Source of the DNA: Sulfobacillus acidophilus DSM 10332
Lineage (GTDB): Bacteria > Bacillota > Sulfobacillia > Sulfobacillales > Sulfobacillaceae
Direction: 5' to 3'
Length of the DNA: 64,000 nt
NCBI GenBank assembly: GCA_000237975.1
Contig: CP003179.1
Span: 1,550,001 to 1,614,000 of the forward strand
Part shown: piece by piece, positions 4,615 through 61,292 of the stretch
Numbering within the stretch: the first letter of the stretch is position 1
Layout: the number at the start of each line of letters is the position of its first letter
Notes under the pieces: generated by a model
Database searches by the model: none
The model's input: only the letters and a program-made list of their open reading frames with translations
Told to the model about the DNA's origin: nothing
Translations under genes and position numbers: made by a program

Positions 4615-5631
4615 ATGATGAGAGAGTGGGATGCGGTCGCTCAATCCGTATTGGCGGGCAACCTGTTGACGTCGGAAGAGGCCTTAGCCGGGCTACAGAC
4701 ACCCGACCGGGATCTTTTGGACTTGCTGGCGGCGGCCTATCGGGTGCGCTATTACTACTATCAAAATCGGGTGAAGTTGAATTATTTGGTGAACGCCAAG
4801 AGCGGCTATTGTCCTGAGGATTGTCATTATTGTTCACAGTCGCGCCTGTCCACCGCCGAAATTCCGAAATATCATCTGTTGGAGGCGAGCGACATTGTGG
4901 CTCGGGCTCGCCACGGCATTCAGTTGCAAGCCGGCACCTGCTGTATCGTGTTGAGCGGTCGACGGCCTGCCGCCAAAGAACTTGACGTGGTCGCGGAAGC
5001 CGCCCGGATATTGAAAGCCGAACACCCCGGGGTGAAAATTTGTGCCTGCCTGGGGCTCTTGTCGGAGGCGGAGGCTCGCCAACTCAAAGCGGCGGGGGTT
5101 GACCGCTATAACCATAATCTGAATACCGCACCTGATCGGTATGACGAGATTTGTAGCACGCATACCTACGAGGACCGGGTCCATACGGTCGGATCGGTTC
5201 AATCCGCGGGCATTTCTCCGTGCTCGGGCGTCATTATCGGTATGGGCGAAACCCCCGACGATATTGTCCGAATGATTGACGAACTCCGCCGGTTAAATGT
5301 CGATTCGGTACCGGTGAACTTCCTGCTGCCCATTCCCGGCACCCCTTTAGCCGAGCGCCCGTTGTCGATGACGCCGACATGGGTTCTGAAGGTGTTAAGT
5401 GTTTTTCGGTTGGGTTTGCCGGACAAGGAAATTCGTATTTCCGCGGGGCGGGAGGTGCATTTGCGGAGCCTACAACCCATGGCGCTTTATGCCGCCAACG
5501 CCCTTTTCGTGTCCGATTACCTCACCGAACCGGGACAGGACGCGGCCCTCGATTGGGCGATGATTGAGGATCTCGGATTTGAAATCGAACCGTTAGGGAC
5601 TCCAATGGGACCGGTCCCGGCGCGAGCCTAA
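4615..5631 (+). CDS. bioB: Biotin synthase (radical SAM)
   Basis: BioB inserts sulfur into dethiobiotin, sacrificing its own auxiliary Fe-S cluster, so it depends on Fe-S assembly such as the suf genes further on. The radical-SAM cluster motif CPEDCHYC supplies C66, C70 and C73. The 338-residue length is typical. The frame is open far upstream inside bioD, but the ATG at 4615 (or 4618) follows AAAGGGGT at 4603-4610 and gives the family N-terminus. It is the last gene of bioFADB and runs into a strong bidirectional terminator. Genes for making the pimeloyl precursor (bioC/bioH or bioW) are not in the window. Confidence 0.95.
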   Translation: MMREWDAVAQSVLAGNLLTSEEALAGLQTPDRDLLDLLAAAYRVRYYYYQNRVKLNYLVNAKSGYCPEDCHYCSQSRLSTAEIPKYHLLEASDIVARARHGIQLQAGTCCIVLSGRRPAAKELDVVAEAARILKAEHPGVKICACLGLLSEAEARQLKAAGVDRYNHNLNTAPDRYDEICSTHTYEDRVHTVGSVQSAGISPCSGVIIGMGETPDDIVRMIDELRRLNVDSVPVNFLLPIPGTPLAERPLSMTPTWVLKVLSVFRLGLPDKEIRISAGREVHLRSLQPMALYAANALFVSDYLTEPGQDAALDWAMIEDLGFEIEPLGTPMGPVPARA

Positions 5632-5635
5632 AGAG

Positions 5636-5665
5636 AAAACCGGAGGGGATGCCCCCTCCGGTTTT
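5636..5665. terminator. Bidirectional terminator between bioB and the minus-strand redox operon
   Basis: A perfect 13-base-pair stem (5636-5648 with 5653-5665) with A-rich and T-rich ends works in both directions. On the minus strand it overlaps the stop codon of the selenoprotein candidate. Confidence 0.9.
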
Positions 5666-6314
5666 ACATTCCCAGCGCTTTTTTAATGACCTGCGCCAAT
5701 CGGTTTTCCGGTACGGCCCCGACTTGTTGTTCGGAGCCGTTGACCACCGTGACCGGGACGCTGTAGACCTGGAAGCGTTCCGATAGGCGGGGAAATGTCG
5801 CCGCATCAACCATGTCGGCCGTAATCATGGCCGGGTTGACCCGTGCCATTTGGTGTGCCAGGCGAACCGCCCGGGGACAGTACGGTCAGGTGGGGGTTAC
5901 AAACACCTCGAGGTGTAAGGGTGTCGTCAATCCCCGTAACCAGTCCTGGGTGGCTTCGCTTAAAGAGACCGGCCGCTCGACGGACAAATCCACAATGTCC
6001 TCTAAAAAGGTCCCAAATTCCTGTCCGCCCGGAAATCCCAGATAACGGATCCCGGTCGACTGGCCATTGACGCTAAAAATGGTAATGGGCCCTTCGAGAT
6101 CCTCCGGGGTTTCCGGAGGCACCGGGGGGAGCAACATCGAGTGCTCCACCACTTCAACTTTGGGATTAATGTCATGAAGTTCGTTGAGCAACTGCCGCAT
6201 GGGATCCGTGGCCGGATTGGACGGATGCGCATAGAACTCCATCGTGACCGGCTGTTTCATGTCCGCCAAAAATTGGCTGACCTCTTGCCGGATGTTGTCC
6301 GAAATAATATTCAT
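5664..6314 (-). CDS. Probable selenoprotein: two-thioredoxin-fold disulfide oxidoreductase with a UPYC site
   Basis: Read as one frame with the UGA at 5886-5888 taken as selenocysteine, this gives a 216-residue protein of the glutaredoxin-like PDO / AhpF N-terminal type. The first thioredoxin fold (about residues 1-115) has no CxxC. The second holds FVTPT-Sec143-P-Y-C146 followed by PRAVRLAH, then the cis-Pro segment VPVTVVNG. The UGA sits exactly on the attacking Cys of the usual CPYC, the sequence stays family-like to the TAA stop, and a stem-loop of the right size and position follows. The start is ATG 6314, with AAGGGAG upstream. It is the last gene of the DUF302-glutaredoxin-hydrolase operon and would reduce disulfides or persulfides. 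A nonsense mutation is the alternative. The Sec insertion genes (selA, selB, selC, selD) are outside the window. Confidence 0.8.
5858..5874 (-). promoter_or_regulatory. Candidate bacterial SECIS hairpin
   Basis: In the mRNA, 11 bases after the UGA, a 7-base-pair stem CCGGGCG / CGCCUGG (one G-U) closes a GUU loop. The loop lies 19-21 bases after the UGA, within the range known for SelB-bound bacterial SECIS elements, which carry G and U in the apical loop. The stem is inside the coding region, as is normal in bacteria. Confidence 0.65.
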
Positions 6315-6419: not shown

Positions 6420-7181
6420 TTAGATAACCGATTCGGCTAGCCCTAAGTTTTGTGACCGGATTTGGGCGGCATTTTCCGGCGGGGGCTTTAACAACCGCTT
6501 TTGCTGGTCCATGAACTCGGCTTCGTCCTGGATTCGGATAAACCGGTTGAAGTGTCGCTCGTAACCAATCGTCGAACTTGGCTTACGGCTCATGTAAAGA
6601 CCGCCGCACGGCGAGGCTCCATAATGGGCCGGCCACAGTTCCGTGAAATCGGGCAGTTGCATAATCCGGTGCACGGTTTGGAATTGGGCACGAGAGGCCG
6701 CGTCAATCCCCTCGTCGGTCGGATTGGCCAGGTCCGGTCGGCCCACGTCGCCGACAAAAAGACTGTCGCCGCTTAAAATCGCCCAGGGTTGGTCGCCCCG
6801 GGTGAGGTCGGTGAGTAATACGGAAATACTATCGGGTGTATGCCCGGGGGTTTCCCAAAACGTCACCTTGAGAGATCCCAAGTCGAGAACCTGGCCGTCG
6901 TGGACCGGTTCAAAGGGGAACTGGGCCGGGGCTTGATGACTCAAGTAAATAGGGACATGCAGCGCGTCGGCGACGTCACGGGCCGCGGAGGCATGGTCCG
7001 CATGGACGTGGGTTTCAATAACCCCTCGCACCGATACGCCCAATTCGGCCGCGGCCAAGACGTAGGCTTCGGCGCCCAATGCCCCCAACGGATCAACGAT
7101 GATGCCTTGGGTCGTGACTTCATCGGCCACGATAAATGAGGAGCATCCGAGATTTTCGTCATGCATCGGAACAAAGATCAT
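6420..7181 (-). CDS. Metallo-beta-lactamase-fold hydrolase, ETHE1-like persulfide dioxygenase candidate
   Basis: The 253-residue protein has the THVHADH motif (H58, H60, D62, H63), H114 in PGHT, and D139 in the GDSLFVGDVGRPDL segment that is characteristic of ETHE1/CstB-type persulfide dioxygenases rather than generic glyoxalase II. Such enzymes hold a mononuclear iron and oxidise glutathione or other low-molecular-weight persulfides to sulfite. The C-terminal part (LWPAHYGASPCGG and beyond) is retained and there is no fused rhodanese domain. A ribosome site AAAGGAGG precedes the ATG. The neighbours (glutaredoxin, UPYC protein, DUF302, CsoR-like regulator, nearby rhodanese) support a sulfane-sulfur role. 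The substrate thiol is unknown. Confidence 0.85.
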   Translation of the reverse strand: MIFVPMHDENLGCSSFIVADEVTTQGIIVDPLGALGAEAYVLAAAELGVSVRGVIETHVHADHASAARDVADALHVPIYLSHQAPAQFPFEPVHDGQVLDLGSLKVTFWETPGHTPDSISVLLTDLTRGDQPWAILSGDSLFVGDVGRPDLANPTDEGIDAASRAQFQTVHRIMQLPDFTELWPAHYGASPCGGLYMSRKPSSTIGYERHFNRFIRIQDEAEFMDQQKRLLKPPPENAAQIRSQNLGLAESVI

Positions 7182-7215: not shown

Positions 7216-7455
7216 TTATTCGACCGAACGAATGCCGAGGGCCCGGTCGAGTTTCGGGCGGTTGAACCCGACGATAATCTGCCCGTTGACGTCGATGACG
7301 GGCACCCCGGTTTGGCCGGATTTGCGCTTCAGGCTTTTCAGCCCTTCTTCCGACCGAGTCACGTCGACTTCTCGGAACGGAACCTTTCGCTCACTCAAAT
7401 ACCGTTTGGCAGATTTGCAGTGGGGGCAGGTGGGCGTGGTATAGACAATCACCAT
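7216..7455 (-). CDS. Glutaredoxin-like / NrdH-type thioredoxin-fold protein
   Basis: A 79-residue glutaredoxin-like protein with the redox motif C-P-H-C near the N-terminus (YTTPTCPHC) and the TGVPVIDVNG cis-Pro segment. It would reduce disulfides or carry persulfide sulfur in the cytoplasm. The start chosen is ATG 7455, since the in-frame GTG at 7464 lies inside the GGAGGTG ribosome site. It sits 34 bases ahead of the ETHE1-like gene in the same transcript. Unlike the downstream two-fold protein it keeps both cysteines. Confidence 0.88.
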   Translation of the reverse strand: MVIVYTTPTCPHCKSAKRYLSERKVPFREVDVTRSEEGLKSLKRKSGQTGVPVIDVNGQIIVGFNRPKLDRALGIRSVE

Positions 7456-7473
7456 CGACAACACCTCCTGGGA

Positions 7474-7890
7474 TTATTGGGCTGCTTTCCGAATGGCTGC
7501 CATGAGACTGGCTTCCACTTCCTGGGCCAACTCTTGTAATGCCGCGGGCGGATTGTCGGTCAAATCCACCAGCACCTGCGGTCGTTGGAGCCCAATGACG
7601 GTCTGTCCGGTTGCGTCCTCTTGATAGACCACGATTTTACATGGTAAAAAGTACCCTGTGGATTGTTGCAGGGTAAGGGCCCGGCGGGCACGAGGAGCAC
7701 TGCAGACTTCCAACACATGAAACGGGGCTACCGGCTCCTGCCCTTTGGTTTGTAACGTCTGATTAATGTCCAAGTGCCATAAGACCCCAAACTGATAGGG
7801 GACGACGGCCGCTTGGACGGCTTCCACAGCTTCCGCCACCGACTTTTCGGTGGTGACGGCAAAGCGGCTCGCGGTTTGGATTTCCGCCAC
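7474..7890 (-). CDS. DUF302-family protein
   Basis: The first gene of the operon encodes a 138-residue DUF302-type protein: the segment PYQFGVLWHLDINQTLQTKG, then FHVLEVCSAPRARRAL and the LPCKIVVYQ strand, are typical. No biochemical role is established; family members are common next to sulfur oxidation and thiol stress genes in sulfur-oxidising bacteria. Two cysteines (in EVCSAP and LPCKI) are conserved-looking. The start is GTG 7890, nine bases after AAAGGAG; the longer frame from 7926 would put the ribosome site inside the gene. Confidence 0.75.
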   Translation of the reverse strand: MAEIQTASRFAVTTEKSVAEAVEAVQAAVVPYQFGVLWHLDINQTLQTKGQEPVAPFHVLEVCSAPRARRALTLQQSTGYFLPCKIVVYQEDATGQTVIGLQRPQVLVDLTDNPPAALQELAQEVEASLMAAIRKAAQ

Positions 7891-7931
7891 CGTCGAACGC
7901 TCCTTTCCGACAACTCCGCTTTCCAAATCCT

Positions 7932-8024: not shown

Positions 8025-8306
8025 ATGGACACGGAAGATCGCATTGTCTATTGGGACGACCAGGAAATCTTAAACCGCCTTCGGCGCATTGAGGGTCAGA
8101 TTCGGGGCGTTCAACAGCTGGTATTAAAGCACGAAACCTGTCGCGCCATTCTCACCCAGCTTTCGGCGGTGGAAGGGGCGCTCCGTCAGGTGAGCCGGAT
8201 CGTCCAAACCTGTAGTGTGGCCGAAGCCTTGGTGGAAGAAGCCCAATTCACCGAGGTGGACGTCTCACAAATTCGCGAGACATTAAAAAAAGTCCTCAAA
8301 TCGTAA
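8025..8306 (+). CDS. CsoR/FrmR/RcnR-family metal- or persulfide-responsive repressor
   Basis: A 93-residue all-helical DUF156 repressor of the CsoR/RcnR/CstR type. The helix-1 signature LNRLRRIEGQIRGVQQL is clear. C39 (HETCRAI) matches the first conserved cysteine. The usual second cysteine, 29 residues later, is missing; instead C63 lies 24 residues after C39, and the His of the Cu(I)-binding CsoR is absent. This argues against copper sensing and is compatible with thiol or persulfide sensing, though the cysteine spacing is odd even for CstR. It is divergent from the DUF302-glutaredoxin-hydrolase-UPYC operon, whose promoter contains a fitting operator. A strong ribosome site (GGGGGGG, 8012-8018) precedes the ATG. 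Confidence 0.88.
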   Translation: MDTEDRIVYWDDQEILNRLRRIEGQIRGVQQLVLKHETCRAILTQLSAVEGALRQVSRIVQTCSVAEALVEEAQFTEVDVSQIRETLKKVLKS

Positions 8307-8413
8307 TCCGGCAAACGGTGCCAGGCACACCGGTCGGGGTCTCTTCATAGCATAGATAACTGGCCATTTCACCTGATTCGGCTCAGCGGTTGTGAGGATC
8401 CAAAGGAGTGGTG

Positions 8414-8767
8414 ATGCTGATGCTCGGCACCGTTTCGCTTTTGTTGGTGACCCTGGGATTAGTCCAAGGTGCGGTTTGGCTAGCCGGGTATATTGGGGGC
8501 AACGCTTTTCCGCAACCCCTGTCGGAAGCGGAAGAAGAGGATCATTTGCGACGGTTGAAAGCGGGCGATCCGGCTGCGCGGCAAGCTCTGATCGAACATA
8601 ACTTACGGTTGGTGGCGCATGTCGTCCGTAAGTATGCCTCCACCGGCGAAGACAATGACGATCTCATCTCGATCGGGACCATCGGCCTTATTAAAGGCAT
8701 TGATTCGTTTGATCCGGATAAGGGGGTCCGATTGGCGACCTATTGTGCCCGATGCATTGACAACGAG
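8414..8767 (+). CDS. sigK: Sporulation sigma factor K, N-terminal half (interrupted gene)
   Basis: These 118 codons match the N-terminal half of pro-sigma-K: a hydrophobic pro-sequence, [24 protein letters not shown], and the [17 protein letters not shown] region-2 core, ending in CIDNE. Without rearrangement the frame runs into foreign sequence and stops at 8827. Joined at the repeated ACGAG to 11449-11817, it gives a continuous 240-residue sigma factor, nearly the length of Bacillus subtilis SigK (241), with the join at the position where the B. subtilis skin element inserts. Sigma-K drives late mother-cell genes. The start is ATG 8414, after AAAGGAG at 8402-8408. Confidence 0.93.
8763..8767 (+). 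repeat. Left crossover repeat of the skin element (ACGAG)
   Basis: ACGAG at 8763-8767 is repeated at 11444-11448. Recombination anywhere inside these five bases restores the sigK frame exactly, giving D-N-E-V-L-M-H-L-R. Confidence 0.8.
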
Positions 8768-8799
8768 ATGGTATGGTCAAAGATTTTTTATTTGATCTC

Positions 8800-8828
8800 T
8801 TGTGAGACAAAGTCTCACGTGATATGAT
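8800..8828 (+). promoter_or_regulatory. dps promoter with a perfect palindrome between the boxes
   Basis: TTGTGA (8800-8805) and TATGAT (8823-8828) are 17 bases apart. A perfect palindrome, GTGAGAC-AAA-GTCTCAC (8802-8818), overlaps the -35 box and the spacer. The Fur/PerR-type gene just downstream is the obvious candidate regulator, though the palindrome is not the classical PerR or Fur box. Transcription would begin very close to the dps ribosome site. Confidence 0.55.
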
Positions 8829-8847
8829 TTTCACGGAGGTGGCGAAT

Positions 8848-9330
8848 ATGAGTTTACGGGCAACACGGATTGAGATGCCTGCATCAACGCGGGAGCAGGT
8901 GGTCACCCTATTAAACCAGCGGGTCGCCGAGGTGACCGACGTCTGGATGCAGATTAAATTAGCCCATTGGAATGTGCGGGGGCCGCATTTTCAGGCGTAC
9001 CATACGTTATTTGACACCCTGGCCGATCATCTATTGGAGGCCCAAGACGCGCTGGCCGAACGGGCGGCCACACTCGGCGGGGAGGCGGGAATGCCGCTTG
9101 GCCAAATGGCACAAATGGCCAATGGCCCCACCTGGCCGATGGGGGTGCGCCAAGACCGGCAGGTAATCATTTTGGTCGCGGACCGGCTGAGCCATATCGC
9201 GAACCGAATCCGTCAGGATATTGACGAAACGGCCGCCTGGGGCGACGCCGGAACCGCCGATTTGTTGACCGAAATATCCCGACAACTGGATCACGACTTG
9301 TGGTTAGTGGAAGCACATGGGGAGGCCTAA
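8848..9330 (+). CDS. dps: Dps-family ferritin-like DNA-protection protein
   Basis: A 160-residue Dps/miniferritin. The ferroxidase signature is visible: KLAHWNVRGPHF, then HTLFDTLADHL, and D-x3-AERAATLGG. Dps forms dodecamers that oxidise Fe(II) with peroxide and store the iron, protecting DNA, which is relevant in an iron-rich acidic habitat. The start is ATG 8848 with GGAGG seven bases upstream; an earlier in-frame ATG at 8824 lies in the promoter. The gene lies inside the skin-like element and so would be lost from the mother-cell chromosome on excision. The Fur/PerR gene follows after 27 bases, probably in the same transcript. Confidence 0.93.
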   Translation: MSLRATRIEMPASTREQVVTLLNQRVAEVTDVWMQIKLAHWNVRGPHFQAYHTLFDTLADHLLEAQDALAERAATLGGEAGMPLGQMAQMANGPTWPMGVRQDRQVIILVADRLSHIANRIRQDIDETAAWGDAGTADLLTEISRQLDHDLWLVEAHGEA

Positions 9331-9357
9331 GGCCCATGACGGAGGAGGCAAGCACGG

Positions 9358-9786
9358 GTGAGTCTTTCGTGGCGGGCGGACGACTTGTTAAAAGCGCACG
9401 GGATGCGGGTGACCCCCCAACGCCGGCATATTCTCACCGTATTTTTGGAGGATACAGGCATGCATCGGTCCGCCGACGAGGTGCGCGAACGAATTTTGCC
9501 CGTGTTGCCGGAGTTGGCTCGGGGAACCACCTATAATACGTTGCGGGAGTTGGTCCGGCAAGGCATATTAGAGGAAATCCCGAGTCCTGAGGGCGTGATG
9601 CTGTATGGACTCCGTCTGGTTCCGCATCACCATTTTGTGTGCGATCGGTGCCATCGATATTTTGACGTGCCTTGGGATACGGTTCCGGTCCCGGCATTTC
9701 CGTTGCCGCCGGACATTGGCCAGGTGAACGGGGTGACGCTCGTCGCCCATGGCATCTGTGCCGCTTGCCAAAAAGGCCAGGCCTAG
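9358..9786 (+). CDS. Fur-family regulator, PerR-like
   Basis: A 142-residue Fur-superfamily repressor: winged helix (RVTPQRRHILTVF, ARGTTYNTLREL) and a dimerisation domain with two CxxC pairs (C95/C98 and C134/C137) that would hold structural zinc. H36, the H90-H92 cluster and D103 resemble PerR regulatory-metal ligands, so it may sense peroxide through iron or manganese; Fur or Zur function is not excluded. The start is GTG 9358 after GGAGGAGG (9341-9348). It lies between dps and the recombinase on the skin-like element, and the palindrome in the dps promoter is its likely target. Confidence 0.88.
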   Translation: MSLSWRADDLLKAHGMRVTPQRRHILTVFLEDTGMHRSADEVRERILPVLPELARGTTYNTLRELVRQGILEEIPSPEGVMLYGLRLVPHHHFVCDRCHRYFDVPWDTVPVPAFPLPPDIGQVNGVTLVAHGICAACQKGQA

Positions 9787-9846
9787 TTTTTCGGTCGTGT
9801 CGCGTACATTCCACCGAAGCCTTTCAAGGTTCTGGGAAAGGAGTCG

Positions 9847-10029
9847 GTGGTTTTGCGTCGATCACATCGAAAAGAGAATCCGTTTCAAAACTGGCCGGTG
9901 GTGATCCAAGGAACCGAAGAACCCTTGCCGAATACGGTGTGGGAGGCATTCCAGCGGATTTTGGCCCGGGATCCGGAGAGGGGGCGAGACCGTGAAGGCC
10001 GCCATTTATCTTCGCGTCTCGAGCGATGA
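9847..10029 (+). CDS. Possible small protein between the Fur-type regulator and the recombinase
   Basis: A 60-codon frame starting at GTG 9847 with AAAGGAG (9837-9843) four bases upstream. The first ~45 residues use codons like those of neighbouring genes and include the plausible segment NPFQNWPVVIQGTEEPLPN. The last 13 codons overlap the recombinase start. I recognise no family. It could be a real small gene of the element or a chance frame. Confidence 0.4.
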   Translation: MVLRRSHRKENPFQNWPVVIQGTEEPLPNTVWEAFQRILARDPERGRDREGRHLSSRLER

Positions 10030-11455
10030 GCAAGCGCTTCACGGGTATAGCCTCGCGGCACAGCGGCACGCCTGCCGGGAACGGGCCCGGCAATTGGGAG
10101 CCGAGGAGATTCAAGAGTGGGCAGACGAAGGCATTCCCGGTACCGTCTGGGATCGGCCGGGATTGACACAGTTACGGCAAGCGGTCAGTGCCCGTGCGAT
10201 CGATTTGGTGGTGATTTACGATCCGGATCGGTTTGCCCGCTCGCTGGCCTTGCAGTTGGTGGTGACGGAAGAGATTGAGCGGGCGGGGGTTCAGCTGGAA
10301 TTTGTCAACTTCGACTGGCAAGATACGCCGGAGGGCAAGCTCTTTTATGCCATGCGGGGCGCGTTTTCGGAGTACGAACGGGAAAAGATTCGCTTACGCA
10401 CCTCTCTCGGCCGCCTACAGAAAGCCAGGCAAGGGCATATGCCGATGGCGGTGGCCCCCTATGGTTACCGCTATGATCCGGCGACGGCTCGTTTAGAGGT
10501 ACATCCGCAAGAGGCCCCGATTGTTGTGCGCATGTTTACCGAATGTGTGCAGGAGCAAAAAAGCCTGAATTCCATCGCCCGTCAGTTGACGACCGAGAAG
10601 ATTCCCACCCGTAAAGGGCTCGGCGTTTGGCACCGCCAAGTGATCCGGCAAATCCTGCAAAATCCGGTCTATACCGGAACCTTTTATGCCAACCGGTATG
10701 AAACCTACGGGGTCGGGCTGAATCGCTTTCGTCCGGCCGGCACCAAAGTTCGGCGTAAAGTGCGCCCCCGTTCGGAGTGGATTGGCATTCCGGCGCCACG
10801 CCTCATCGACCCGGTGATTTGGGAGGCGGCCCAACAGCGGATACGCGAGCGCACCCGGACGCCGGGGACGTCCTATCTTTTAGCCGGGTTGGTGCGCTGC
10901 GGCTTGTGCCGGCAAACATTGGTGGGGCGTCGCGACCAATCGTGGGGTCGCCCAAATCGCATCTATACCTGTCGGAAACATTCGGCCGGTGCGGCTCACC
11001 CCGGATGTCGGCCCGAGCGTCGGCTAGACGCCGATGCGCTCGAAGACGCGATTTGGCAGGGAATGAAATCCTATGGGAGCCGCCTGTTGCAGCAGTTGGC
11101 GGAGAGGCCCGCCGGGGAAGGAAATGACCGGCACGCACGGCTGGACCGCATTACCCGGGCCCAAGGCCATTTACTGGACGCATTGGCGGAAGGTCTCGGC
11201 GATCCGGCCGTCATTCGCCGACGCCTGCGGGCGTTAGAGGAGGAACGACGAGCGTTGGACCCCTCGCTGAGCCCTCCCTCCGTCCGCTCGGGGCGGGTCT
11301 TCGAGTGGGAGGCGATACCGGTCTATTGGCGGCGGGAAATTTTAGAGGTGTTGGTCCGCAGGATCGTCGTCGGCGACGGGCAACTCACGATTGTGCTGAA
11401 GACCGATCCGGAAAACATTTCCGTGGCCCGTATGACGGTACCGACGAGGTGTTGA
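9992..11455 (+). CDS. Serine site-specific recombinase, SpoIVCA-like (skin excisionase)
   Basis: A 487-residue large serine recombinase. The resolvase domain begins YLRVSSDEQ with the nucleophile at S10, followed by R80 and R83 in DPDRFARS and the EREKIRLRTSLG helix near residue 130. A recombinase domain follows (PYGYRYD, then IARQLTTEKIPTRKG), then a zinc-ribbon (CGLC at one end, YTCRKH with HPGC at the other) and a short C-terminal tail. It should excise the element to rebuild sigK. The start is GTG 9992 after GAGGGGGCG. Its final codons cross the right crossover repeat, so the stop lies in sigK sequence; in the excised circle the C-terminus would change to a slightly longer tail. Confidence 0.93.
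   Translation: MKAAIYLRVSSDEQALHGYSLAAQRHACRERARQLGAEEIQEWADEGIPGTVWDRPGLTQLRQAVSARAIDLVVIYDPDRFARSLALQLVVTEEIERAGVQLEFVNFDWQDTPEGKLFYAMRGAFSEYEREKIRLRTSLGRLQKARQGHMPMAVAPYGYRYDPATARLEVHPQEAPIVVRMFTECVQEQKSLNSIARQLTTEKIPTRKGLGVWHRQVIRQILQNPVYTGTFYANRYETYGVGLNRFRPAGTKVRRKVRPRSEWIGIPAPRLIDPVIWEAAQQRIRERTRTPGTSYLLAGLVRCGLCRQTLVGRRDQSWGRPNRIYTCRKHSAGAAHPGCRPERRLDADALEDAIWQGMKSYGSRLLQQLAERPAGEGNDRHARLDRITRAQGHLLDALAEGLGDPAVIRRRLRALEEERRALDPSLSPPSVRSGRVFEWEAIPVYWRREILEVLVRRIVVGDGQLTIVLKTDPENISVARMTVPTRC
11444..11448 (+). repeat. Right crossover repeat of the skin element (ACGAG)
   Basis: This second copy of ACGAG lies at the end of the recombinase gene and directly before the sigK C-terminal half, in the same reading phase as the left copy. 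Confidence 0.8.
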
Positions 11456-11817
11456 TGCATCTCCGGAATCGTAAAAAGACGAATCGGGAAGTCAGTTTAT
11501 ATGACCCGATCGGGGTCGACCGGGAAGGGAACGAGATCTCCTTGGTCGATGTATTGGGAACCGACCCGGAAGTGGTGGCCGATCAGGTAGAAGTGTTGGT
11601 CGTCATCGAGTGGGTGCGAAATTTTGTACAGTCGCTCACTCAAAAAGAGAAAATGGTGCTGGATTTGCGTTTCGGCTTGAACGGTCATCCGCGAATGACC
11701 CAACGAGACATTGCTCGTCATTTAAATATTTCCCGTAGTTATGTATCACGCATCGAAAAGCGTGCCGTACGCAAGATTTTGCGGGAATTGGGGTCATCCG
11801 ATCGGATGCCGCAATAA
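11449..11817 (+). CDS. sigK: Sporulation sigma factor K, C-terminal half (interrupted gene)
   Basis: 122 codons plus stop encoding sigma regions 3 and 4 of SigK. Visible are VLMHLRNRKKTNREVSLYDP, the GNEISLVDVLG segment, the KMVLDLRFGL turn and the DNA-binding helix ISRSYVSRIEKRA. The fragment has no ribosome site or proper start of its own, so it is expressed only after excision joins it to 8414-8767. Compared with B. subtilis SigK the C-terminus lacks the last Lys-rich residues. Confidence 0.93.
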   Translation: MLMHLRNRKKTNREVSLYDPIGVDREGNEISLVDVLGTDPEVVADQVEVLVVIEWVRNFVQSLTQKEKMVLDLRFGLNGHPRMTQRDIARHLNISRSYVSRIEKRAVRKILRELGSSDRMPQ

Positions 11818-61035: not shown

Positions 61036-61155
61036 CCTTATTAGGTTATTATACCGGTAAATGGGCAAGAGACGGGTGCCAAAGGCTCTTGGTTTCGGAT
61101 CTTTACCTGGGGGCCGAATGGTGATAGCATACCATTAGCCGAATATGTTGGGATT

Positions 61156-61241
61156 GGCGCTAGGGGTGCCGAAAGGCTGAGAAACGGAAGACCGTTAACC
61201 CTTAGGACTCGAACTGGATAATGCCAGCGGGAGAAAGTGCC
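61156..61241 (+). ncRNA. TPP (THI-element) riboswitch
   Basis: The conserved aptamer pieces are present in order: P1 arms GGCGC (61156-61160) and GTGCC (61237-61241), GGGGTGCC, CTGAGA (61177-61182), ACCCTT (61198-61203) and GAACTGGATAATGCCAGCG (61211-61229). It binds thiamine pyrophosphate and controls the thiamine transporter genes that follow. Confidence 0.95.
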
Positions 61242-61251
61242 GGAATACGTC

Positions 61252-61292
61252 GCCTCTGATGCTGGCTTTAGGCATGGAGGCATTTATTTTTT
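61252..61292 (+). terminator. Riboswitch expression-platform terminator
   Basis: GCCTC and ATGC (61252-61262) pair with GCAT and GAGGC (61272-61281), and a T-rich tail follows. The segment GCTGGC (61261-61266) can instead pair with GCCAGC (61223-61228) of the aptamer, giving an antiterminator when TPP is absent. So TPP turns the transporter off. Confidence 0.85.

Follow-up and report, generated by a model that had tools for sequence, protein, structure and literature searches.

The closest described proteins belong to a selenoprotein family that was found in Carboxydothermus hydrogenoformans and Symbiobacterium thermophilum in 2006 as 'homolog of AhpF N-terminal domain' (PMC1794560), and that a review lists under TIGR02187 as 'Homolog of AhpF N-terminal domain', with the motif UxxC and predicted with high confidence (PMC13188914). 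In Sulfobacillus, selenocysteine (Sec)-containing formate dehydrogenases have been reported (PMC4378227), and a Sec peroxiredoxin, up-regulated, was seen by proteomics in S. thermotolerans (PMC7409299); no Sulfobacillus member of the TIGR02187 selenoprotein family was found in the papers cited here. The gene described here, from S. acidophilus DSM 10332, adds a member to a family catalogued as predicted selenoproteins since 2006 and is not a new kind of system. A sequence-only reading of the locus had called a selenoenzyme at this place notable; the selenoprotein itself is well supported, and the claim to notice has to be put more mildly, the family being already catalogued (PMC1794560, PMC13188914).

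The window, that is, the whole stretch of DNA that was analysed (64,000 nucleotides), corresponds to bases 1550001-1614000 of the chromosome (3,472,898 bases; the two-replicon genome totals 3,557,831 bases). On its minus strand, a frame starts with ATG at 6314, runs for 142 codons to a TGA at 5888-5886 and continues without any shift for 73 more codons to a TAA at 5666-5664, as the sequence-only reading had described it, with correct coordinates and a family-like continuation. The TGA is the single in-frame UGA and is the first position of FVTPT-U-PYC; in the translation of the frame, LEVFVTPT and the UGA are followed directly by PYCPRAVRLAHQMARVNP. When the TGA is read as a residue, the resulting 216-residue protein, with Cys146 as its sole cysteine, matches Pfam Thioredoxin_3 (134-205) and Glutaredoxin (136-193); because both profile matches cross the UGA position, the sequence past it is family sequence. 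The part before the UGA by itself still matches DUF7088. Prodigal was used to call the genes of this strain (PMC3558970). Gene calling under the standard code truncates the protein at two thirds of its length, with loss of the active site, and does the same to dozens of relatives. The features of the gene are as follows.

5664..6314, minus strand: predicted selenoprotein gene, 216 codons on readthrough plus TAA; two thioredoxin folds, PDO / AhpF-N-terminal-domain type
5886..5888, minus strand: in-frame UGA, predicted Sec143 of the U-P-Y-C active site (frame reading and homologue alignment)
5858..5874, minus strand: SECIS-type hairpin, 6-bp stem CCGGGC / GCCUGG, loop GGUUC, 11 nt past the UGA (conservation)

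The nearest NCBIfam model is TIGR02187 (PDO_seleno_TRX), matched over its full length at 184.3 bits when U is treated as C, which is 0.7 bits under the curated cut-off of 185. Orthologues span that cut-off (169-214 bits), with L035 (187.4), L057 (206.7) and L052 (213.6) above it and L032 (179.4) and L041 (172.5) below. The UxxC motif and the two thioredoxin folds are shared with the TIGR02187 selenoproteins. The AlphaFold model of the window protein has a mean pLDDT of 97, and its top Foldseek match is the Pyrococcus furiosus PDO (1a8l), with further PDO-like proteins and N-terminal domains of AhpF next in rank; a family profile matches 1a8l over its whole length (E 2.8e-49) and also matches AhpF. 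These results agree with the two-fold PDO/AhpF type that had been assigned from the sequence. The motif FVTPTCPYCP of 1a8l is identical apart from Sec in the window protein. Whereas 1a8l carries CxxC in both folds, the first fold of the window protein has no cysteine, so that its N-terminal site is gone and the dual-site PDO pattern (CxxC in both folds) is absent, and Sec replaces the first Cys of the second site. The AhpF N-terminal domain (1zyn, 6il7, 5h29) likewise has two folds and a single active pair, located in the second; the window protein differs from it in having Sec for the first Cys, in an identity of just 22-24 %, and in ending at residue 216, without the fused FAD/NAD(P)H thioredoxin-reductase-like part of AhpF. 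Among 80 named loci, the N-terminal CxxC is kept in 57 of the 61 Cys forms and absent from 18 of the 19 UGA forms, a pattern that partly follows phylogeny, because close Cys relatives also lack the CxxC.

The protein is present in 95 of 154 genomes of the class, in most with one TGA inside. At the codon aligned with Sec143, the 30 best-matching class loci (41-100 % identity) have TGA in 27 and TGC in three (L038, L048, L049), and the 80 named loci, from GTDB genomes, have TGA in 19, TGC in 43 and TGT in 18 (Cys in 61); the two sets share some genomes and are not independent. Neither in the 30 class loci nor in the 80 named loci was a residue other than Sec or Cys, or a stop other than TGA, found at this position, so the UGA does sit on the first Cys of the redox motif, as the sequence-only reading had placed it, and the homologue alignment that it proposed as a check gives Cys or UGA and nothing else. 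Since TGA recurs at the same codon in both sets, with Cys codons in the rest, chance is excluded. The standard code would end the frame at the UGA, and a recent nonsense mutation, leaving a pseudogene or a truncated protein of 142 residues, would account for that much; this reading is refuted by 26 further family members that have UGA at this codon, and it is rendered very improbable by the class-wide retention of the UGA with a conserved downstream half, by a hairpin under synonymous constraint and by the Sec machinery of the genome. A random nonsense mutation had been judged unlikely from the sequence as well. It is even less probable that a sequencing error conceals a TGC or TGT: Cys is indeed the only alternative residue in relatives, but the TGA occurs in independent genomes, from isolates and metagenome assemblies, and the hairpin accompanies it.

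The machinery for Sec insertion, for which a genome search had been suggested, is present in full. The genome encodes tRNA-Sec, the selC product (73 bits, Rfam; anticodon tca by ARAGORN), and profile searches recovered selA (551 bits), selB (339 bits) and selD (357 bits). The selB product has the SelB Pfam domains, a SelB beta-barrel and two winged-helix domains, and selD carries an in-frame UGA of its own, at SGUGC, a place at which many SelD proteins have Sec. A second Rfam tRNA-Sec match over the cut-off (L002, 56 bits) was rejected as a second selC, ARAGORN identifying it as tRNA-Cys with anticodon gca. Across the class, SelA is over the cut-off in 72 of 76 genomes with the UGA form and lacking in six of 13 with Cys forms only (Fisher p = 0.0005, kinship not corrected). 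The four UGA genomes without SelA over the cut-off, all draft assemblies, are G089, G093 and G123, with none, and G052, with a fragment at a contig end; in G094 and G095, of one genus (g3), the codon is TGC and no SelA reaches the cut-off. Other ways of reading the UGA, namely a UGA=Trp code, a suppressor or unprogrammed readthrough, or the making of two proteins by reinitiation, have a very small probability in our judgement. An in-frame ATG does lie 12 codons past the UGA, at 5849, but a start there loses the active-site motif and the preceding strand; relatives without the UGA have Cys here in every case, never Trp; and the set of tRNA-Sec, SelA, SelB and SelD is complete. Taken with the conserved codon, the evidence indicates that Sec is almost certainly inserted at codon 143, as far as can be judged from sequence comparison.

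Bacterial SECIS elements of the Escherichia coli fdhF type are short hairpins that follow closely on the UGA and carry GU in the apical loop. The window hairpin resembles the fdhF element in place and in the GU of its loop, and differs from it in having its own sequence and its own stem. All six stem pairs are formed in 25 of 27 UGA homologues; when synonymous codons were drawn at family frequencies (2000 trials), full stems averaged 2.2 of 27, with a maximum of nine. In a register scan of 600 positions, 24 of 26 UGA genes form the 6+5+6 frame at +14 from the first UGA base, and every other position is reached by at most four of 26. Over 25 distinct rows, pairs are kept at 97 % in register versus at most 51 % when slid, and the second and third loop bases are G and U, without exception, in the 26 UGA genes. 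Exchange of A-U for G-U is common in the stem across the family; changes on both sides of the stem occur in one row alone, the paralogue L012. The stem is broken in each of the close Cys homologues L038, L048 and L049 (five of six pairs), and two UGA members (L044, L046) form just four of six pairs in the shared register. For the window gene, the 45 nt behind the UGA fold with an energy that is not unusual against synonymous shuffles (z -0.18; GC-rich coding sequence), and the claim for the hairpin therefore rests on conservation. The element is a SECIS-type hairpin at the correct distance from the UGA, with conservation both of its register and of its synonymous sites, and is predicted to bind SelB. 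An Rfam scan of the window gave no SECIS family; its single match is a TPP riboswitch (61152-61252, plus strand, 65.4 bits).

Two homologues outside this pattern were seen. At the Sec codon, a Bacillota MAG homologue (L124:4001-4606, plus strand) reads TGT (Cys), yet its hairpin is complete, with loop GGUCC, and resembles a fossil SECIS left behind by a recent change from Sec to Cys. In a MAG titled Candidatus Aquidulcis (L138:4001-4657, plus strand), the UGA is at the site, the N-terminal CxxC is kept and the hairpin was not seen in the shared register; a different SECIS or another origin may account for this.

Three other UGA-containing thioredoxin-fold genes were observed. Two UGA-interrupted thioredoxin-fold genes of the same genome, L011:1300-1872 (plus strand; UPRC) and L012:1390-1917 (plus strand; UAFC), are distant paralogues, well below the TIGR02187 cut-off, and their families are possibly undescribed selenoprotein subfamilies. 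In the L012 family, most relatives have one in-frame UGA, and SelA-less G094 has no stop; behind the UGA, L012 reads ACCAGAU-GGUCC-AUCUGGU. The third, a thioredoxin (L013:1411-1758, minus strand), has UGA for the first Cys (WUPHC) and, behind it, a perfect 6-bp hairpin, CGACUG-GGUC-CAGUCG.

The neighbours of the selenoprotein gene are as follows.

5631..5661, minus strand: terminator-like stem-loop CCGGAGGGG-GCAT-CCCCTCCGG with a T-run, immediately past the TAA (sequence, partly by scan)
6420..7181, minus strand: metallo-beta-lactamase (MBL)-fold protein; nearest solved relatives 3r2u and 3tp9, with ETHE1 and BpPRF weaker
7216..7464, minus strand: small glutaredoxin-like (Grx) protein (CPHC), YruB / UXX-star group (profile matches)
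7474..7926, minus strand: DUF302 protein, opening the co-directional run (profile match)
8025..8306, plus strand: CsoR/RcnR-family regulator (PF02583), divergent (profile matches)

The DUF302, Grx, MBL and selenoprotein genes run in one direction from 7926 to 5664, and are followed by the stem-loop and its T-run (5661-5631), which extends to the last base of the convergent bioB; this arrangement fits the earlier proposal that the gene ends an operon, itself a prediction. The MBL-fold protein is likely of the persulfide dioxygenase type; 3tp9 is a structure named lactamase and rhodanese protein. Beyond the regulator, at 8408-11814 (plus strand), sigK is split into an N-half (8408-8827) and a C-half (from ~11446) by a gap of ~2.7 kb that holds a Dps gene (8824-9330), a Fur/PerR gene (9358-9786) and an XisF-like serine recombinase (9992-11455). 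The insert is a skin-like element with iron/peroxide-stress genes, and sigK is unbroken in the relative L061.

The evidence as a whole makes it highly probable that the gene encodes a selenoprotein, a tandem thioredoxin-fold oxidoreductase in which Sec143 is inserted by means of SelA, SelD, SelB and the hairpin. SelA and SelD would make Sec-tRNA(Sec), which SelB, bound to the hairpin that begins 11 nt past the UGA, would deliver at codon 143, so that the ribosome would finish 216 residues instead of halting at 142. The first fold would have lost its CxxC, and the second would hold one selenenylsulfide pair, Sec143-Cys146, ahead of the cis-Pro loop (SVP); its mode of action would be that of the N-terminal domain of AhpF, or of a protein disulfide oxidoreductase with a single site, and a role as thiol-disulfide reductase is probable. 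By analogy with thioredoxin-fold UxxC proteins, for which these steps are established, the Sec143 selenolate would attack a sulfur atom of a disulfide, persulfide or polysulfide, Cys146 would resolve the adduct, and a flavin thioredoxin reductase would recharge the pair. A thioredoxin reductase is encoded in the genome (C1:2518540-2519442, 403 bits), and we give it an even chance of being the electron donor.

The natural substrate is less clear-cut. Across the order, CsoR-like, Grx, DUF302, MBL and rhodanese genes recur beside the selenoprotein gene in shuffled orders; these recurrent neighbours are suggestive of a common pathway, most simply the handling of sulfane sulfur. A per- or polysulfide or a protein persulfide may accordingly be proposed as substrate from the neighbouring genes, at somewhat less than even confidence; the tie to persulfide chemistry, which the sequence-only reading had also proposed, comes from this conserved neighbourhood and from the family assignments of the genes. 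In known systems, AhpC receives its electrons from the AhpF N-terminal domain, and the selenoprotein could instead be a general disulfide reductase or peroxiredoxin donor in that role, its neighbourhood reflecting shared control of thiol stress. We give this alternative, which contests the substrate alone and not the selenoprotein, close to an even chance: the protein matches the N-terminal domain of AhpF in fold and in having a single active site, and the MBL gene is not adjacent to the selenoprotein gene in several genera, but the linkage of MBL, rhodanese, Grx, DUF302 and CsoR-like genes recurs across families of the order. Under the reading with sulfane sulfur as substrate, the one-site Sec PDOs of the Sulfobacillus order might be dedicated selenyl reductases for persulfides or polysulfides, inherited together with the genes for persulfide dioxygenase, rhodanese, glutaredoxin and DUF302 proteins, and derived from a two-site PDO that lost its N-terminal CxxC and gained Sec at the other site; we offer this as a tentative idea, rather doubtful at present.

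What is added for this family member is the hairpin signal and the conserved place beside sulfur-handling genes, by which a selenoprotein family without known function is linked to sulfane sulfur as a concrete chemical setting. Close relatives carry either the Cys or the Sec version, some with SelA and some lacking it, and amount to a natural experiment on the retention of Sec; an acidophilic oxidizer of sulfide minerals apparently uses selenocysteine in several thiol enzymes at once.
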